From: an uncultured SAR116 cluster alpha proteobacterium
GTDB lineage: Bacteria > Pseudomonadota > Alphaproteobacteria > Puniceispirillales > Marisalimonadaceae
Reading direction: 5' to 3'
Assembly (NCBI GenBank): GCA_902533695.1
Contig: CACAMV010000005.1
Location: 1-56,266 of the forward strand
Length of the DNA: 56,266 nucleotides
Shown: one piece after another, positions 20,739 to 27,244 of the stretch
How positions within the stretch are numbered: position 1 is the first letter of the stretch
Layout of the letters: each line of letters opens with the position of its first letter
Made by a program: the position numbers and the translations under genes
The notes under the pieces: generated by a model
Told to the model about the DNA's origin: nothing
The model's input: the letters and a program-made list of their open reading frames with translations, nothing else
Database searches by the model: none

Positions 20739-21518
20739 ATGCTTATTAATCATGGTGTTAGAGGGTCATTACCACGTGCTAATAATAATTTTGGAGTATA
20801 CGGTGGAAATACTATATGTGTTGAATTAAAATCTTCTGATGTTCAGTTGATTTTTGATTGTGGAACTGGTTTTTCTAAAGTTAAATTCACTAAAGATACC
20901 CCAACCATAATTTTATTTTCACATTTTCATCATGATCATATTCAAGGTTTTCCATTTAATGAGTTTTTAACAAATGGAAAAAAAATTTTTATTTCCAGTG
21001 CGATTTGTTCAAAAAAAGAATTAAAAAATATTTTACAGCAATATCTTAGTCCACCATATTTCCCAGTTAACTTTATTGAATTAAATAAATTTTTTGAGTT
21101 TGTAGATTTTAAAGATTTAGTTAAATCATTTAAAGATTTCAATATTGAAAGTTTTAATCTTAATCATCCAGGAGGTTGTTCGGGATACAGTGTTTTGATA
21201 AATGGTAAAAAGTTTTGTACTTTACTTGATAATGAATATCAAGATCAACAATTTCAAGATTTGAAAACTTTTTGTAAAAATTCTGAAGTAGTAATTTGGG
21301 ATGGTATGTATTTAGATGAAGAACTAATTGATAAAAAAGGTTGGGGACATTCTTCAATAGAGCAAGGTTTAAAATTTTTAGATAAAGTTGATTTTAGTAA
21401 ACTAATGATATCTCATCATTCCCCATCAAGAAATGATTTGTTGTTAGAAAAGATAAGTAAAAAATTTAAAAAATCTAACGTTATAATTGCTGAGGAAGAT
21501 AAGGAGTACAAATTGTAA
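20739..21518 (+). CDS. MBL-fold metallohydrolase, possible cyclic-nucleotide phosphodiesterase
   Basis: The 259-residue metallo-beta-lactamase-fold protein carries HFHHDH at residues 62-67 in SHFHHDHIQG, a later His in NHPGG, Asp in LLDNEYQ and His in ISHHSP, enough for a two-metal site. The N-terminal GVRGSLPRANNNFGVYGGN plus FDCGTGF resembles the RNase Z/class II phosphodiesterase-like branch. It is the first gene of a five-gene unit; its TAA overlaps the ATG of the cyclic-nucleotide-binding gene (TAATG). Next to a cyclase, a role in degrading the cyclic nucleotide is attractive, but that is inference; other phosphodiester or lactone substrates are possible. Confidence 0.82.
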   Translation: MLINHGVRGSLPRANNNFGVYGGNTICVELKSSDVQLIFDCGTGFSKVKFTKDTPTIILFSHFHHDHIQGFPFNEFLTNGKKIFISSAICSKKELKNILQQYLSPPYFPVNFIELNKFFEFVDFKDLVKSFKDFNIESFNLNHPGGCSGYSVLINGKKFCTLLDNEYQDQQFQDLKTFCKNSEVVIWDGMYLDEELIDKKGWGHSSIEQGLKFLDKVDFSKLMISHHSPSRNDLLLEKISKKFKKSNVIIAEEDKEYKL

Positions 21519-21862
21519 TGGAAAAACAGAGTTTTAATGAAAATCAAAAAGTTTTCAATGTTGGAGATGCACCTGACAAAATGTACCTTTTAGTTAAGGG
21601 TAAAGTTGGTATCTTTTTACCTACTAACGAAACAAAGGAGCCAAATTTTATTATTGAAGAAATGGAATTATTTGGTGAAATGGGTTGTATTGAAAATGAA
21701 CTTAGGATGGCAACAGCAAGATGTTTAGAGCAATCAGAAGTGATTTCTATAACTAAAAAAGAGTTTGATGACAGGGTAAATAATTCAGATGTTTTTATTA
21801 AGGGTTGTGTTAATGCCTTATCTTATAGATTAAGACAACTTGATAAAAAAATGCAAAAATAA
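21518..21862 (+). CDS. Stand-alone cyclic nucleotide-binding domain protein
   Basis: The 114-residue protein is a single CRP/PKA-type cNMP-binding beta-barrel without DNA-binding domain, kinase or channel attached. The phosphate-binding cassette is intact: Phe52-Gly53-Glu54 (LFGEMG) and Arg63 with Ala65-Thr66 (LRMATAR), the Glu and Arg that hold ribose and phosphate in PKA and CRP. The C-terminal helix (YRLRQLDKKMQK) could interact with a partner. It sits between an MBL hydrolase and a kinase gene, starting at 21518 by TAATG coupling with an upstream AAGGAG. As there is no effector domain, it may act as an adaptor or sink. Confidence 0.85.
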   Translation: MEKQSFNENQKVFNVGDAPDKMYLLVKGKVGIFLPTNETKEPNFIIEEMELFGEMGCIENELRMATARCLEQSEVISITKKEFDDRVNNSDVFIKGCVNALSYRLRQLDKKMQK

Positions 21863-21885: not shown

Positions 21886-24800
21886 ATGCAAATAGACATT
21901 GATTTAGCCAAAAGCCTTATAGAGGCGTTTAATCATGAAGAAACGGGAATACTTTTATGGGATAAAGACGATAAATTAATTTTTAGAAACATAGACATTG
22001 AGAAAAGGTTCGTAAGGCTAAAAGTTCCTTTTGAGATTGGTAAAACTTTTTTTCAAAGAATGGATTTAATTAAAAAAAGTAAAATTTTACCTCTTGAAGT
22101 TCAAAAAATTAGAATAAAAAATTATCAATTAGCTAAGTCAAAAAAAGAACCACAAGAGATGGTGATCAAAGGTCCAACTAATAGGTGGATACAAGTTAAA
22201 GATACAATTACACCGTCTGGCAATATTTTAACTTTATTAACAAATGTAACTAAGATAGTTGAACAAGAAGAGGAAAGAAAAAGGTTGGTCAATGCGATAC
22301 AAAATGTTCCTATAGGCATTATGTTTTGGGATGAAAATGACAATCTAATTTCTAACAATGAAAAATCCAAAGATGTATTTCGTTCAATGGATATGCCTTT
22401 GATAGATAAGGGCACGAACTTTAAAGATATGCTCAACAAAAATGTTGAAGCTGGGGCATATTTGCTGGATGAAGGAGTTACAAAAGATCAATATATTAAA
22501 AAAAGGATAAAGGATAGAAAAAAATTAAAAATTTCTTCTAATGAACAAACTTATAAAGATGGAAGCACAATGCTCGTTAATCAAATAAGATTAGAAGATG
22601 GATGTTTGATGCAGTTATTTACTGATATTTCTGAAGTAAAGAAAAAAGATGAAGAATTACAAAGATTAAGTGTAGCAATTGAGAGTGTTCCAAGCGGTAT
22701 TCATTTTTGGGATGAAGATAATAAGCTTATTTTAGCTAATAAGATGGCCAGAGATTTACATAAGTCATGGGATTTTCCATTTAAATTAGAAAAAGGAGTA
22801 AAATACGAAGATTTATATCGATCTTTAATTTCTCATAAAGTATTTGATAGCCCAAAAGGAATGAACTTGGATGAAATTGTCAATGAAAGATTAAGAAATA
22901 GAAATGAAATCACAAGTGGGTCAAGAGAGATTGAATTAAATAATGGAAGTACTTTTGTTGCTAGTGAAATAAGAGTTGATGATGGATCTGTGTTAAGTAT
23001 TTTTAGTGATATCAGTGAAATTAAACAAAGAGAAAAGGAGTATAAGTTAGTAAGTGATGCGCTTAATACTTTACCACATGGTGCTACCTTATGGGATAAA
23101 GAAGATAAATTGATTATGGCTAATACTTTTGCTTATGAGATTTGGAAAGCTGGTGGAATTAATTTGAATCCTGGAGATTCATATGCTCATTATCTTGATC
23201 TTCAAAGAAAACACAAATTTGTCAATTTTGGTGAAATGGATAAAACAGCCCAAGAACATTATTATGGAAAAGTTTTAAAAAGCAGGAAAGAACTTAAAGA
23301 TGAAATGACTTTTGTTACCCCACCTTTTTATAATGGATCAATATGGCAATCTACTTCAACAAGGTTAAGTAACGGAGGAATATTTTCGTTATTAACGAAT
23401 GTCACTGAAATTAAACAAAAAGAAAATGATCTACAGCAATTATTAGATACTGTCGATCAAGTTCCAACAATAATTCTTCTGTGGGATAAGAATCACAAAT
23501 TAATTCATTCAAATGAAATGGCAAAGTCAAATGCTAAAAATAGACTAAACATTGAATTAAAGGACGGAATAACTAGAAAAGAATATGTAATGTATATAAT
23601 TAAAAGTGGACTACTAGAAGCTCCTGAGGGAATGAGTGTTGATGAATTTATCGATCAAAGAGAAAAGGAAATTAATAACTTTAAAGATAAACAAAGATTT
23701 GAGACAACATTCACTGACGGTGTTACTTTTGCAGGTTTGTTTAACAAATTTCCAGATGGAAGTTATATACAAATTTTTGATGATATAACGGATTTAAAAG
23801 GAAAAGAAAATCAAGCAAGGTTAGCAGAAAAGAGACTTCAAGATGCCATAGACAGTATGCCTCATGGAATATCATTATGGGATAAAGATGATGTTTTGGT
23901 TTTAAATAATAAGTATGCTTATGAGATTCATAAAAAAGCGGGAATTGATAATTATTTGCCTGGAATCACTTTTGAAGAACAAATAAAAGCACATAAGGAA
24001 AAAAACTTTTTAAAATTTGATAATCAAGAAGAAAAAAATAAGTATTTTGAAAGTGCTTTTAAAAACAGAAAAGCTTTTACTGGAACAAGGACATTAGAAG
24101 TACCTCAATTCTATGATAATTCATTCTGGACTGCCACCTATACAAGATTAGAAGACAATAGTGTTTTTTCAATTTTTTCAAATATAACTGAACTCAAAAA
24201 TAGAGAAAAAGAGTTAAGAAAAACGATAACACAGTTAGATGATGAAAAACAAAAAGCTAATGCTGCTAACAAAACAAAAAGTCAATTTTTAGCCAATATG
24301 TCGCATGAATTAAGAACACCATTAAATGCAATAATTGGATTAACAGAAATGTTGAAAGAAGATGCAACTGACGATGGTTTGGATGATTTTGTTGAGCCAT
24401 TAGATAGAGTATTTAATGCTGGAAAGCATTTATTGACTCTCATTAATGACGTTCTTGATTTGTCAAAAATTGAAGCAGGTAAAATTGATTTGTTTAATGA
24501 AACTTTTGAACTGAGACCAGTTATTGATGATATAATGAAAACTTCAGATCCATTGGCATCCAAAAATGGCAACAAACTAATGTTAAGTTATGATGAAAAA
24601 ATTGATCAGATAACTTCGGATCAAACAAGAATAAAACAGGTCATTTTAAATTTAATTTCAAATGCTTGTAAATTTACTGAAAAAGGAACAATTACACTTT
24701 CTTTTAAAAAGAAAAACAGGACATTTATTAGGAATGGTAAAAAAATTAGTTTAGGAGATTTAATAACAATTGACATTTCCGATACGGGTATTGGAATGAC

Positions 24801-25833
24801 TCAAGATCAGGTAGATAAATTATTCAACTCCTTTGTTCAAGCTGATAGTTCAACAACAAGGAAATATGGTGGAACAGGACTAGGATTAACTATTTCAAAA
24901 CAACTTGCAATTATGATGGGTGGTGATGTAACTGTAAAAAGTACAATCAATGAAGGAACAATATTTACTTTTACTTTTCTAGCTGATTATCGCGATGCAT
25001 CAGAGGATACAAAAAATAAAAAGACTAACGAAAGCTCCTTAATCAAGAATGTTGTTTCTATTGAAAATCAAAATATAATTGAAAATAAAAAAGCTAAAAC
25101 TATTTTAGTTATTGATGATGATCCAACAGTTAGTGAACTAATTAAAAGACAACTTACAAAAGATGCATCTTATAACGTTCTAATAGCAAGTAATGGTAAG
25201 GATGGTTTAAAGTTGGCAAGAGAAGTTAAACCAAACTTAATCACTTTAGATATTTTAATGCCTGAAATGGATGGATGGTCAGTGTTAAGAACATTAAAGG
25301 CTGATCCAGAAGTGTCAAACATTCCAGTTATAATGGCTTCTATATTAGATGAGAAAAACAAAGGATTTTCTCTAGGGGCATCAGATTTTGTATCTAAACC
25401 TATTGAGAAAGAAAATTTGTTAAAATCAATTCAAAATTTAATTGGTAAAAGTGAAAACTTAAAAATTTGTATCATAGAAGATGATGAAAATTTAAGATTT
25501 ACGATAAAAGAACTTCTTCAAAAACAAGGAAACACAGTAATTGAAGCGAAAAATGGTAAAGTAGGAATAGAATTGTTAGAAAATGAAGAAACTTTGCCGG
25601 ATTTAATACTTCTTGATTTGATAATGCCTGAAATGAATGGATTTGAATTTTTAAACACGATAAAAGGAACAAAATTAAAAACTATTCCCGTCTTAGTTTT
25701 AACAGGGGCAGATTTAAATGATGAAGATATTAAGTTTTTAAGAGGAGAAACTGAAAAGATTCTGCAAAAAACTGATGATACAGTATTGAGCATTACTGAA
25801 GAAATTAATAAAGTAATTAAATTAGCAGGATAA
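21886..25833 (+). CDS. Soluble hybrid histidine kinase with six PAS-like repeats and two receivers
   Basis: The 1315-residue protein has no membrane segments. Six related PAS-like units of about 115-130 residues begin at motifs such as [60 protein letters not shown] and [12 protein letters not shown], each ending near a [FL][ST]DIxEIK-like segment (PAS_7 style). A HisKA domain with His807 ([12 protein letters not shown]) and an ATPase domain ([22 protein letters not shown]) follow, then two receiver domains with phosphoacceptors Asp1122 ([10 protein letters not shown]) and Asp1244 ([10 protein letters not shown]). The ligand is unknown. A single-domain regulator starts 3 bases downstream, so the phosphate could flow H-D-(H)-D to it or to the cyclase. 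Confidence 0.92.
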
Positions 25834-25836
25834 AAA

Positions 25837-26199
25837 ATGACTAAGATTTTGTACGTAGAAGACAATGAAGATAATGTTTATATGCTTTCAAGACGATTAA
25901 AAAGGAAAGGTTTTGAAATTATTATAGCAACTGATGGTGAAATGGGAGTACAAATGGCTGAGTCAGAAAAGCCAGATCTAATTTTAATGGATTTAAGTTT
26001 ACCAAAAATGGATGGATGGACAGCTACTAAAACGATAAAAAGTAATGAAAACTTGAAATCTATTCCTATCATTGCTCTATCAGCACATGCCATGGATGAG
26101 CACAAACAAAGAGCAATGGATTCTGGATGTAATGATTATGATACAAAACCTGTAGATATAAATAGGTTATTAGATAAAATAAATAACCATCTAAACTAG
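25837..26199 (+). CDS. Single-domain response regulator (DivK/CheY-like)
   Basis: The 120-residue receiver domain has acidic pocket Glu8-Asp9 (YVEDNEDN), phosphoacceptor Asp52 (ILMDLSLPKMDGW), switch Ser (ALSAHAM) and Lys in DTKPVDI. There is no output domain. Its start follows the hybrid kinase stop by 3 bases and the cyclase gene begins 4 bases after it. The likely partner is the upstream kinase; it may shuttle phosphate or act allosterically as DivK does. Confidence 0.92.
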   Translation: MTKILYVEDNEDNVYMLSRRLKRKGFEIIIATDGEMGVQMAESEKPDLILMDLSLPKMDGWTATKTIKSNENLKSIPIIALSAHAMDEHKQRAMDSGCNDYDTKPVDINRLLDKINNHLN

Positions 26200-26203
26200 T
26201 TGA

Positions 26204-27244
26204 ATGATAAATAAAGAAGAAGCAAATATATTAATCGTTGACGATATTGAGGACAATCGTTTTACTCTTGAAAGAAGATTAAAAAGAGATGGATATAAAA
26301 ACATTTTTTCCGTTGATGGTGGATCGGCTGCATTAGACGAAGTTAAAAAAATAAGTTTTGATCTCATACTTCTAGACTTAATGATGCCAGATGTGAGTGG
26401 TTTAGACGTTTTAAAAAGTTTAAAAGGTAATCCTATTTTTAGAATAATACCCGTAATTATGGTTACAGCATCTGATGAAATCGAAACTGCCGCGGAGTGT
26501 ATTAAAAATGGAGCAGATGATTTTATCACCAAACCTTTCAATGGTACTCTTTTGAAAGCTAGGGTAGATGCTTGTCTTGAGAAAAAGCGTCTTAGAGATA
26601 GTGAAGAGTTGTACCTAGGTAAAGTTGAGAGCGATAAAAGAAAATCACAGCAAATTCTTAAAACAGTTATGCCAACTTCTGTGGCAAATGAATTACAAAG
26701 CTCAGGTTTTGTAAGATCAAGAAGGTATGATGAAGTTGCAATCCTAATATGTGATTTAGTTGGTTTTACATCTTTTTGCGAAAAAAATGATCCTGAATTG
26801 GTGGTAGAGACTTTGCAAGGCTTAGTTGAAAAATTTGAAATAGCTTTTAAAAATTATAATTTAGAAAAAATTAAAACTGTTGGTGACGCGATCTTAGCTG
26901 TTTCGGGTTTATCTTCAATGGATGACCCTTCAGTTAAAAATTGTGTGGATTGTAGTTATGAATTAAAAAGCATTGCAAACTCCTACTCAATGCCATGGGA
27001 TCTTCATATTGGTATACATTTTGGTTCTTTGGTAGCTGGGACGGTTGGAAAAAATACAGTCCAATATGATATACTTGGAAAGAGCGTAAATCTTGCCTTT
27101 AATATATGTGACATGTCTGAGCCAAATCAGATTCTAATTTCAACGGATGCATGGATGACTGCCAGGAGTGAGATTAATGTTAACTCAGTAGGTTTGAAAA
27201 AATTAAAAAGTGGTCAAGAAATTGAAATATTAGAGTGTAAATAG
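26204..27244 (+). CDS. Receiver-class III adenylyl/guanylyl cyclase fusion
   Basis: The 346-residue protein joins a receiver domain (about 8-125; Asp58 in LLDLMMPDVSG, Lys in TKPFNG), a helical linker (about 128-165) and a class III cyclase domain (about 175-340). Metal-binding Asp184 (ICDLVGFT) and Asp228 (KTVGDAIL) are present. Adenine-selecting residues look intact: Lys in EKIKTVGD and Asp289 in QYDILG, so ATP is the likelier substrate. The transition-state Asn296 is kept, but the usual Arg four residues later is Asn300 (SVNLAFNICD), which may lower activity. It closes the cassette 1 base from a convergent gene. Confidence 0.9.
   Translation: MINKEEANILIVDDIEDNRFTLERRLKRDGYKNIFSVDGGSAALDEVKKISFDLILLDLMMPDVSGLDVLKSLKGNPIFRIIPVIMVTASDEIETAAECIKNGADDFITKPFNGTLLKARVDACLEKKRLRDSEELYLGKVESDKRKSQQILKTVMPTSVANELQSSGFVRSRRYDEVAILICDLVGFTSFCEKNDPELVVETLQGLVEKFEIAFKNYNLEKIKTVGDAILAVSGLSSMDDPSVKNCVDCSYELKSIANSYSMPWDLHIGIHFGSLVAGTVGKNTVQYDILGKSVNLAFNICDMSEPNQILISTDAWMTARSEINVNSVGLKKLKSGQEIEILECK

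Follow-up and report, generated by a model that had tools for sequence, protein, structure and literature searches.

The window, by which we mean the whole stretch of 56,266 nucleotides analyzed here, carries a same-strand run of genes that ends with a protein joining a receiver to a class III cyclase homology domain (REC-cyclase). In order along the plus strand, the run encodes an MBL-fold hydrolase (PF12706; 20739..21518), a 114-aa protein made of a lone cyclic-nucleotide-binding (CNB) domain (21518..21862), a hybrid histidine kinase of 1315 aa in which Pfam detects PAS repeats, HisKA, HATPase_c, and two receivers (21886..25833), a 120-aa single-domain receiver protein recognized from its open reading frame and Pfam (25837..26199), and the REC-cyclase itself (26204..27244, plus strand; exact open reading frame bounds, 346 aa plus stop), which is the subject of our finding. 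Thirty-six close relatives of the REC-cyclase were found in named genome records, 30 of them titled SAR116 cluster and 6 under a broader or other title. Since the genome from which the window comes is only 59.56% complete (71 contigs), absences from it prove little.

The receiver of the REC-cyclase (Response_reg, PF00072; residues 9 to 121; 26228..26566, plus strand) scored 99.9 bits, and in a structure search with a whole-protein model it matched CheY-type receivers (Z 23.1). Its acidic pocket, Thr, and Lys are intact: Asp13, Asp14, Asp58, Thr88, and Lys110 are invariant in 31/31 distinct copies. The class III cyclase homology domain (Guanylate_cyc, PF00211; residues 171 to 336; 26714..27211, plus strand) was assigned by Pfam, with 106.4 bits for the window protein against a cutoff of 21.9, and by fold match. 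Modeled alone, this domain has the class III fold (mean pLDDT 74.6, pTM 0.72), and it superposes on Pseudomonas aeruginosa CyaB (3r5g) with Z 24.6 and rmsd 2.1 over 176 aligned residues. It was modeled separately because the whole-protein model was poor at residues 286 to 306 and its fold search listed only receivers; the domain model is itself poor at the arm formed by residues 279 to 289 and in its first 35 residues.

The motif that normally reads VNxAxR in class III cyclases is YDILGKSVNLAFNICD / YDILGKSVNLAFN in the window, with Asn at residue 300 (codon AAT, 27101..27103, plus strand) in place of the transition-state Arg. The first-pass annotation had assigned Asn300 to the Arg position, and alignment with the C2 halves of AC8 (VNLASRM) and AC5 (VNVASRM) bears this out, since Asn300 falls on the Arg of both. 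Asn is present in all 36 SAR116 copies that cover the site, that is, in the window and in 35 of the 36 relatives; the remaining relative (L036) ends at about residue 267 and was left out of every site count. In other class III cyclases, sister REC-cyclases included, the same column holds Arg in 48/48 rows, corresponding to 47 distinct proteins because identical sequences were counted once and one protein still appears twice, as a fragment and whole. Half of these rows (24) have a receiver in the same reading frame and 24 have none that was found.

Broader scans gave a similar picture. Across 398 genomes of the phylum, a motif scan returned 56 rows, of which 13 were set aside as not cyclase-like; the other 43 comprised 39 with Arg, one with Asn (the window), and one each with His, Met, and Leu. 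When the Asn form of the motif was required to follow Asp-Ile, a match was obtained in 1 of 385 genomes of the class, the window's own. In 12 related genomes of the SAR116 family, Asn-type copies keep Asn (11/11) and the other cyclase motifs keep Arg (19/19), as read from 30 de-duplicated rows with loci out of 68 rows. Arg at this site is thus a strong rule with rare exceptions. A literature search over titles and abstract openings, with few subscription papers, returned neither a class III cyclase with an Arg-to-Asn change nor this SAR116 protein. Mutants of the Asn and of the Arg were reportedly studied by Yan et al. in 1997.

Much of the remaining active site is kept. The first-pass annotation held that both metal-binding Asp residues and the adenine-selecting pair are retained, and the alignments agree: metal ligands Asp184 (26753..26755) and Asp228 (26885..26887) are kept in the copies and in the survey alignment, and adenine-selecting Lys224 (26873..26875) and Asp289 (27068..27070) are likewise in place. 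So are Asn296, the ribose-positioning Asn of the transition-state pair (27089..27091), and Lys335, the equivalent of Lys1065 that contacts phosphate (27206..27208; 31/31 distinct copies; all codons on the plus strand). This retention of metal, adenine, ribose, and Lys335 positions fits retained Mg-ATP binding.

A second basic residue has been lost. At position 268 (27005..27007, plus strand), where 37/37 class IIIa-like comparison cyclases have Arg or Lys, His is found in 31/31 distinct SAR116 copies. The position aligns with the Arg of the MRVGIHSG strand in AC5 C1, which, counted from the metal ligand Asp440, we take to be Arg484. Across the full set of 48 comparison rows, 41 have Arg at this position, 1 has Lys, and 6, all of them distant, have Gly; the class IIIa-like set consists of 37 of the 48, two rows of another subclass and nine rows below 65 bits having been left out. 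In the accessible part of one review, Arg1029, Arg484, and Lys1065 are the basic residues that bind the triphosphate and stabilize the transition state (PMC9223806). Two of these three are therefore gone from the SAR116 protein, because the equivalents of Arg1029 (residue 300) and Arg484 (residue 268) are replaced, and only Lys335, the Lys1065 equivalent, is kept.

More generally, 42 columns of the cyclase domain are at least 80% conserved among the 37 class IIIa-like cyclases. Among the 31 distinct SAR116 copies, the residue is retained in at least 95% of copies at 26 of these columns and not at the other 16, several of which differ by mild changes. Besides His268, the marked changes are Trp291 to Leu, Asp293 to Lys or Gln, Pro275 to Ser, and the KGKG loop to KSGQ; apart from Pro275, these changes, with that at Arg268, are ones that the first-pass annotation did not list. 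There are also gains. Close to Lys335, the SAR116 copies have fixed basic residues at 332 (Lys, 31/31) and 333 (Arg or Lys, 31/31), where comparison cyclases have mostly Val or Ile and acidic or neutral residues. This bears on the idea, raised in the first-pass annotation, that an Arg might be supplied from a shifted position: none adjoins residue 300 in the copies, but basic residues are fixed at 332 and 333. In the domain model, Asn300 (domain residue 161) lies on the helix at 154 to 165, His268 (129) on the strand at 127 to 138, and Lys335 (196) in the loop that follows the strand at 187 to 194, which residue 333 ends (spans in domain numbering).

The Asn-type gene is under strong constraint. 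In six close pairs, dN/dS of the cyclase domain was 0.027 to 0.083, and for the receiver it was 0.026 to 0.048 in five of these pairs, the ones that allowed the calculation; synonymous change approaches saturation when more distant copies are compared. Asn300 is encoded by both AAT and AAC across the copies. The substitution is real, old, fixed, and selected. In a tree of 13 Asn-type copies and 48 other rows, the Asn-type copies group in a single clade (100/100 support). Its stem is 1.37 changes per column long, and its neighbors in the tree, joined at a fork with 99/90 support, are REC-cyclases that without exception carry Arg. We also considered whether the cyclase domain alone had undergone a burst of change and found no support for this: in separate single-domain trees (13 + 17 rows), the cyclase-only stem (1.97) and the receiver-only stem (1.20) are both long.

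Orthologues were detected in 36 of the 58 genomes of the window's SAR116 family, among the matches listed (sorted by E value, with orthologues at the top), and none was seen among the listed matches, sorted in the same way, for the other 78 genomes searched in the order. Among the matches listed for the six family genomes that are at least 90% complete, the REC-cyclase is present in five and is lacking from G049.

In the CNB protein, FGE and Arg63 of the phosphate pocket are invariant (16 rows, 14 genes), and in the MBL protein, HFHHDH together with His143, Asp164, and His226, corresponding to HxHxDH and the dinuclear metal ligands, is invariant (13 rows, 12 genes); a gene enters the row counts twice if its genome is covered by two loci. 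The closest solved structure to the CNB protein is a domain of Bd1971, and that domain binds cAMP. The MBL protein gave a weak sequence match to the structure of Bacillus subtilis YhfI (6kns; E 0.009). It shares PF12706, HxHxDH, and further metal ligands with MBL phosphodiesterases of the Rv1339/YhfI type, from which it is distant in sequence. According to the available portions of two reports, the phosphodiesterase Rv1339 is one of the PF12706 MBL enzymes, and YhfI of B. subtilis acts on cAMP and cGMP in preference to cCMP and cUMP (PMC9293780, PMC9117128). From these motifs, the upstream protein is probably a cyclic-nucleotide phosphodiesterase.

The MBL-CNB pair lies directly before the triad of hybrid kinase, lone receiver, and REC-cyclase in the window and at L015, L133, L134, L153, L198, and L199. 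It also occurs with no adjacent REC-cyclase in G049, G050, G051, G052, G058, and G077, the last from another family; G050 and G051 have a REC-cyclase on another contig. Among the matches listed for the 58 family genomes, many of which are incomplete, the MBL gene and the REC-cyclase occur together in 30, the MBL gene alone in 3, and the REC-cyclase alone in 6. At L029 (3117-4282), the pair is downstream of the REC-cyclase, so the pair has moved around the triad.

One genome adds a second cyclase to the run. In G008 (L198:4733-12709), genes on one strand, separated by at most 44 bases or overlapping slightly, encode an Arg-bearing cyclase fused to an abhydrolase, the MBL protein, the CNB protein, the hybrid kinase, the lone receiver, and the Asn-type REC-cyclase, giving two cyclases in one run. 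The Arg-bearing enzyme belongs to a distant subtype (PF00211, 55.7 bits). In G014, the same strand carries an Arg-bearing cyclase/abhydrolase gene two genes farther upstream. No Arg-bearing cyclase gene was found in the operon of the window or in that of L153, which comes from the window's own genus. We considered taking the MBL-CNB pair as proof that the REC-cyclase synthesizes cAMP and dropped the argument, because the pair occurs without an adjacent REC-cyclase and has an Arg-bearing cyclase beside it at L198. With an Arg-bearing cyclase in or near the run, as in G008 and G014, the pair could serve that enzyme, and the REC-cyclase could act with it.

Several known systems resemble the SAR116 protein in part. 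REC-class III cyclases of other Alphaproteobacteria (L096-L102 and L155; 37 to 45% identity), which stand closest to it in the tree, share its architecture of receiver and cyclase, and at L125, L126, and L129, outside the SAR116 family, the gene order of histidine kinase, receiver, and REC-cyclase is also the same. Unlike the SAR116 copies, however, L096-L102 and L155 all have the Arg, and their other catalytic residues are canonical except at 335 in L100 (Ser) and L155 (Arg). In three other REC-cyclases, the transition-state Asn has become Ile (L159 and L160) or Val (L162); the Arg is kept in all three.

The C1 half of mammalian adenylyl cyclases has the class III fold, keeps its metal ligands, and has the Arg replaced (His in AC5, Lys in AC8, Leu in AC9), as in SAR116. 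In contrast to the SAR116 protein, in which Arg484 has become His and the Asn is kept, and which is not known to depend on a partner, C1 keeps Arg484, has the Asn replaced in AC5 and AC8, and works only with C2. The mycobacterial class III cyclases Rv1900c and Ma1120 also have an unusual transition-state pair: in the available parts of the sources, the Asn is replaced in both, and Ma1120 is said to retain the Arg (PMC4886424, PMC4215837). SAR116 is the reverse, with the Asn kept and the Arg replaced. Three further cyclase-like proteins have lost the Arg and kept the metal ligands (L194, Met; L195, Leu; L196, His), and L196 also has His at 268; these differ from SAR116 in architecture, and L194 and L195 keep Arg268 but lose Lys335. 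A phosphate-binding Arg of Cya2 is often replaced in Bacteroidetes cyclase-like proteins, according to a passage that does not state which Arg is meant (PMC4886424). The absence of the Asn from Ma1120 and Rv1900c, and of the Arg from L194, L195, and L196, means that catalytic residues of the class III family are replaceable in nature.

Our preferred interpretation is that this signaling protein, with most of a cAMP-making active site, probably represents a weakened or idle cyclase that has been maintained for a different purpose. More specifically, we consider the chances about evenly balanced that it is a cyclase homologue that is switched by its receiver and binds Mg-ATP but turns little or none of it over. 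It would be the output protein of a SAR116 two-component operon composed of the hybrid kinase, the lone receiver, and the receiver-cyclase. Arg300 changed to Asn and Arg268 to His in an ancestor shared by the members of one SAR116 family, and both changes have been held since. We infer that the cyclase domain may still dimerize and bind Mg-ATP between its two copies, in an arrangement set by receiver phosphorylation, and that cAMP would be made very slowly or not at all. The output of such a dormant or pseudo-cyclase switch would then be a shape or a partner, with no burst of cAMP. Near-absent turnover together with Mg-ATP binding is suggested because two of the three triphosphate residues are lost and the metal, adenine, and ribose residues are held. 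A receiver-driven mechanism has a parallel in DgcR-type REC-GGDEF diguanylate cyclases, which also consist of a receiver, an extended helix, and then a cyclase output, although the output family and the product differ. There, in the accessible text, phosphorylation of a receiver on an extended helix may shift the coiled coil (PMC8041772). By analogy, a receiver on a long helix could set how two cyclase domains meet.

The first-pass annotation had left a choice between low basal activity that needs activation by the receiver and outright loss of cyclase function. The loss of the second triphosphate Arg weighs the evidence somewhat toward loss or near-loss, simple decay is ruled out by dN/dS, and the domain architecture suggests possible activation by the receiver. 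Some observations count against a nearly silent protein. Strong constraint on the other catalytic residues is equally expected of an active enzyme, the basic gains at 332 and 333 may compensate for the losses, position 268 is not absolutely Arg across class III cyclases, and the receiver stem is also long. A probable cAMP phosphodiesterase and a cAMP-receptor-like domain directly upstream suggest that a cyclic nucleotide is made there; this is a weak counterargument, because the pair also occurs without a REC-cyclase.

The next best reading is that the protein is a working but weak adenylyl cyclase, which we regard as possible, though on the unlikely side. Asn300 and His268 would lower basal turnover, receiver phosphorylation would raise activity enough to be of use, the CNB protein would read cAMP, and the MBL protein would remove it. 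Such an enzyme is consistent with the kept catalytic residues and the intact receiver, with the CNB and MBL genes found immediately before the triad in the window and at the six loci named above, and with the MBL gene in 30 of the 36 family genomes that have a REC-cyclase (among the matches listed). Conserved catalytic residues can moreover be replaced: Ma1120 lacks the usual Asn, and, in the available part of the report, inserting Asn lowered its activity (PMC4215837). Against this stand the loss of two of the three triphosphate basic residues and the occurrence of the MBL-CNB pair away from any adjacent REC-cyclase in G049-G052, G058, and G077, together with the three family genomes that have the MBL gene and no REC-cyclase match among those listed. 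The presence of the pair does not show that the REC-cyclase feeds it, because the pair occurs without the REC-cyclase.

A doubtful reading would make the protein a bacterial regulatory pseudo-cyclase under receiver control that still binds Mg-ATP although both of its triphosphate arginines are gone. It would sense ATP, or it would gate a separate Arg-bearing cyclase encoded in its own run (as in G008), and a dedicated phosphodiesterase and a receptor would lie next to it. If true, the protein would correspond, within a two-component system, to the mammalian C1 half. In a related and somewhat less probable version, the protein would be a regulatory half that associates with an Arg-bearing cyclase present in the cell, or gates it, like the mammalian C1 half, which has its metal sites but no Arg. 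An Arg-bearing cyclase does head the run in G008 and lies two genes farther upstream in G014, and Arg is kept in the 19 other cyclase motifs read from the 12 related genomes. The family profile also favored the AC5 C1 construct over AC2 C2 (86.4 versus 62.0 bits). However, the difference was slight in full-length AC5 (C1 83.1 versus C2 78.8 bits), smaller for the Arg-bearing relative L096 (64.4 versus 60.6) and for the window alone (45.3 versus 36.1). The fold comparison also gave a small difference (Z 23.4 and 21.5), so that the lean of the SAR116 family toward C1, the half without Arg, is at most weak. In addition, C1 of AC5 and AC8 has the equivalent of Asn296 replaced (Thr and Asp) and retains the Arg484 that SAR116 has lost; the window and L153 operons lack such a partner gene, and the Arg-bearing cyclase of G008 is of a distant subtype.

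That the lost contacts are made instead by His268, Lys332, and Arg/Lys333, leaving the protein a fully competent cyclase, is quite unlikely: the fixed basic residues and the place of residue 333 at the end of the strand before the Lys335 loop would suit it, but no such case was found in the literature searched (titles and abstract openings). A sequencing artifact or decaying gene, which the incomplete and fragmented assembly might suggest, is scarcely credible and was rejected, given the same residue in 36/36 copies from different genome records and dN/dS far below 1.

Class III cyclases are recognized by a short list of catalytic residues, and proteins without one of these are often written off as dead or overlooked. 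In the present case, an entire bacterial family has exchanged two catalytic residues with the rest of the site under strong selection, and its operon can be tested as a unit. This is a clean natural case in which to ask whether the cyclase fold can signal without, or almost without, catalysis. The finding is also a warning against annotating the SAR116 protein simply as an adenylate cyclase.

Two further features were observed. The hybrid kinase varies in length, from 1315 aa in the window (21886-25833) to 1827 aa in G014 (L199:9824-15307), perhaps through the number of PAS repeats. At L088 (G035:C53), one contig carries the same cyclase gene on both strands in mirror-image positions, a pattern suggestive of a chimera formed during amplification.
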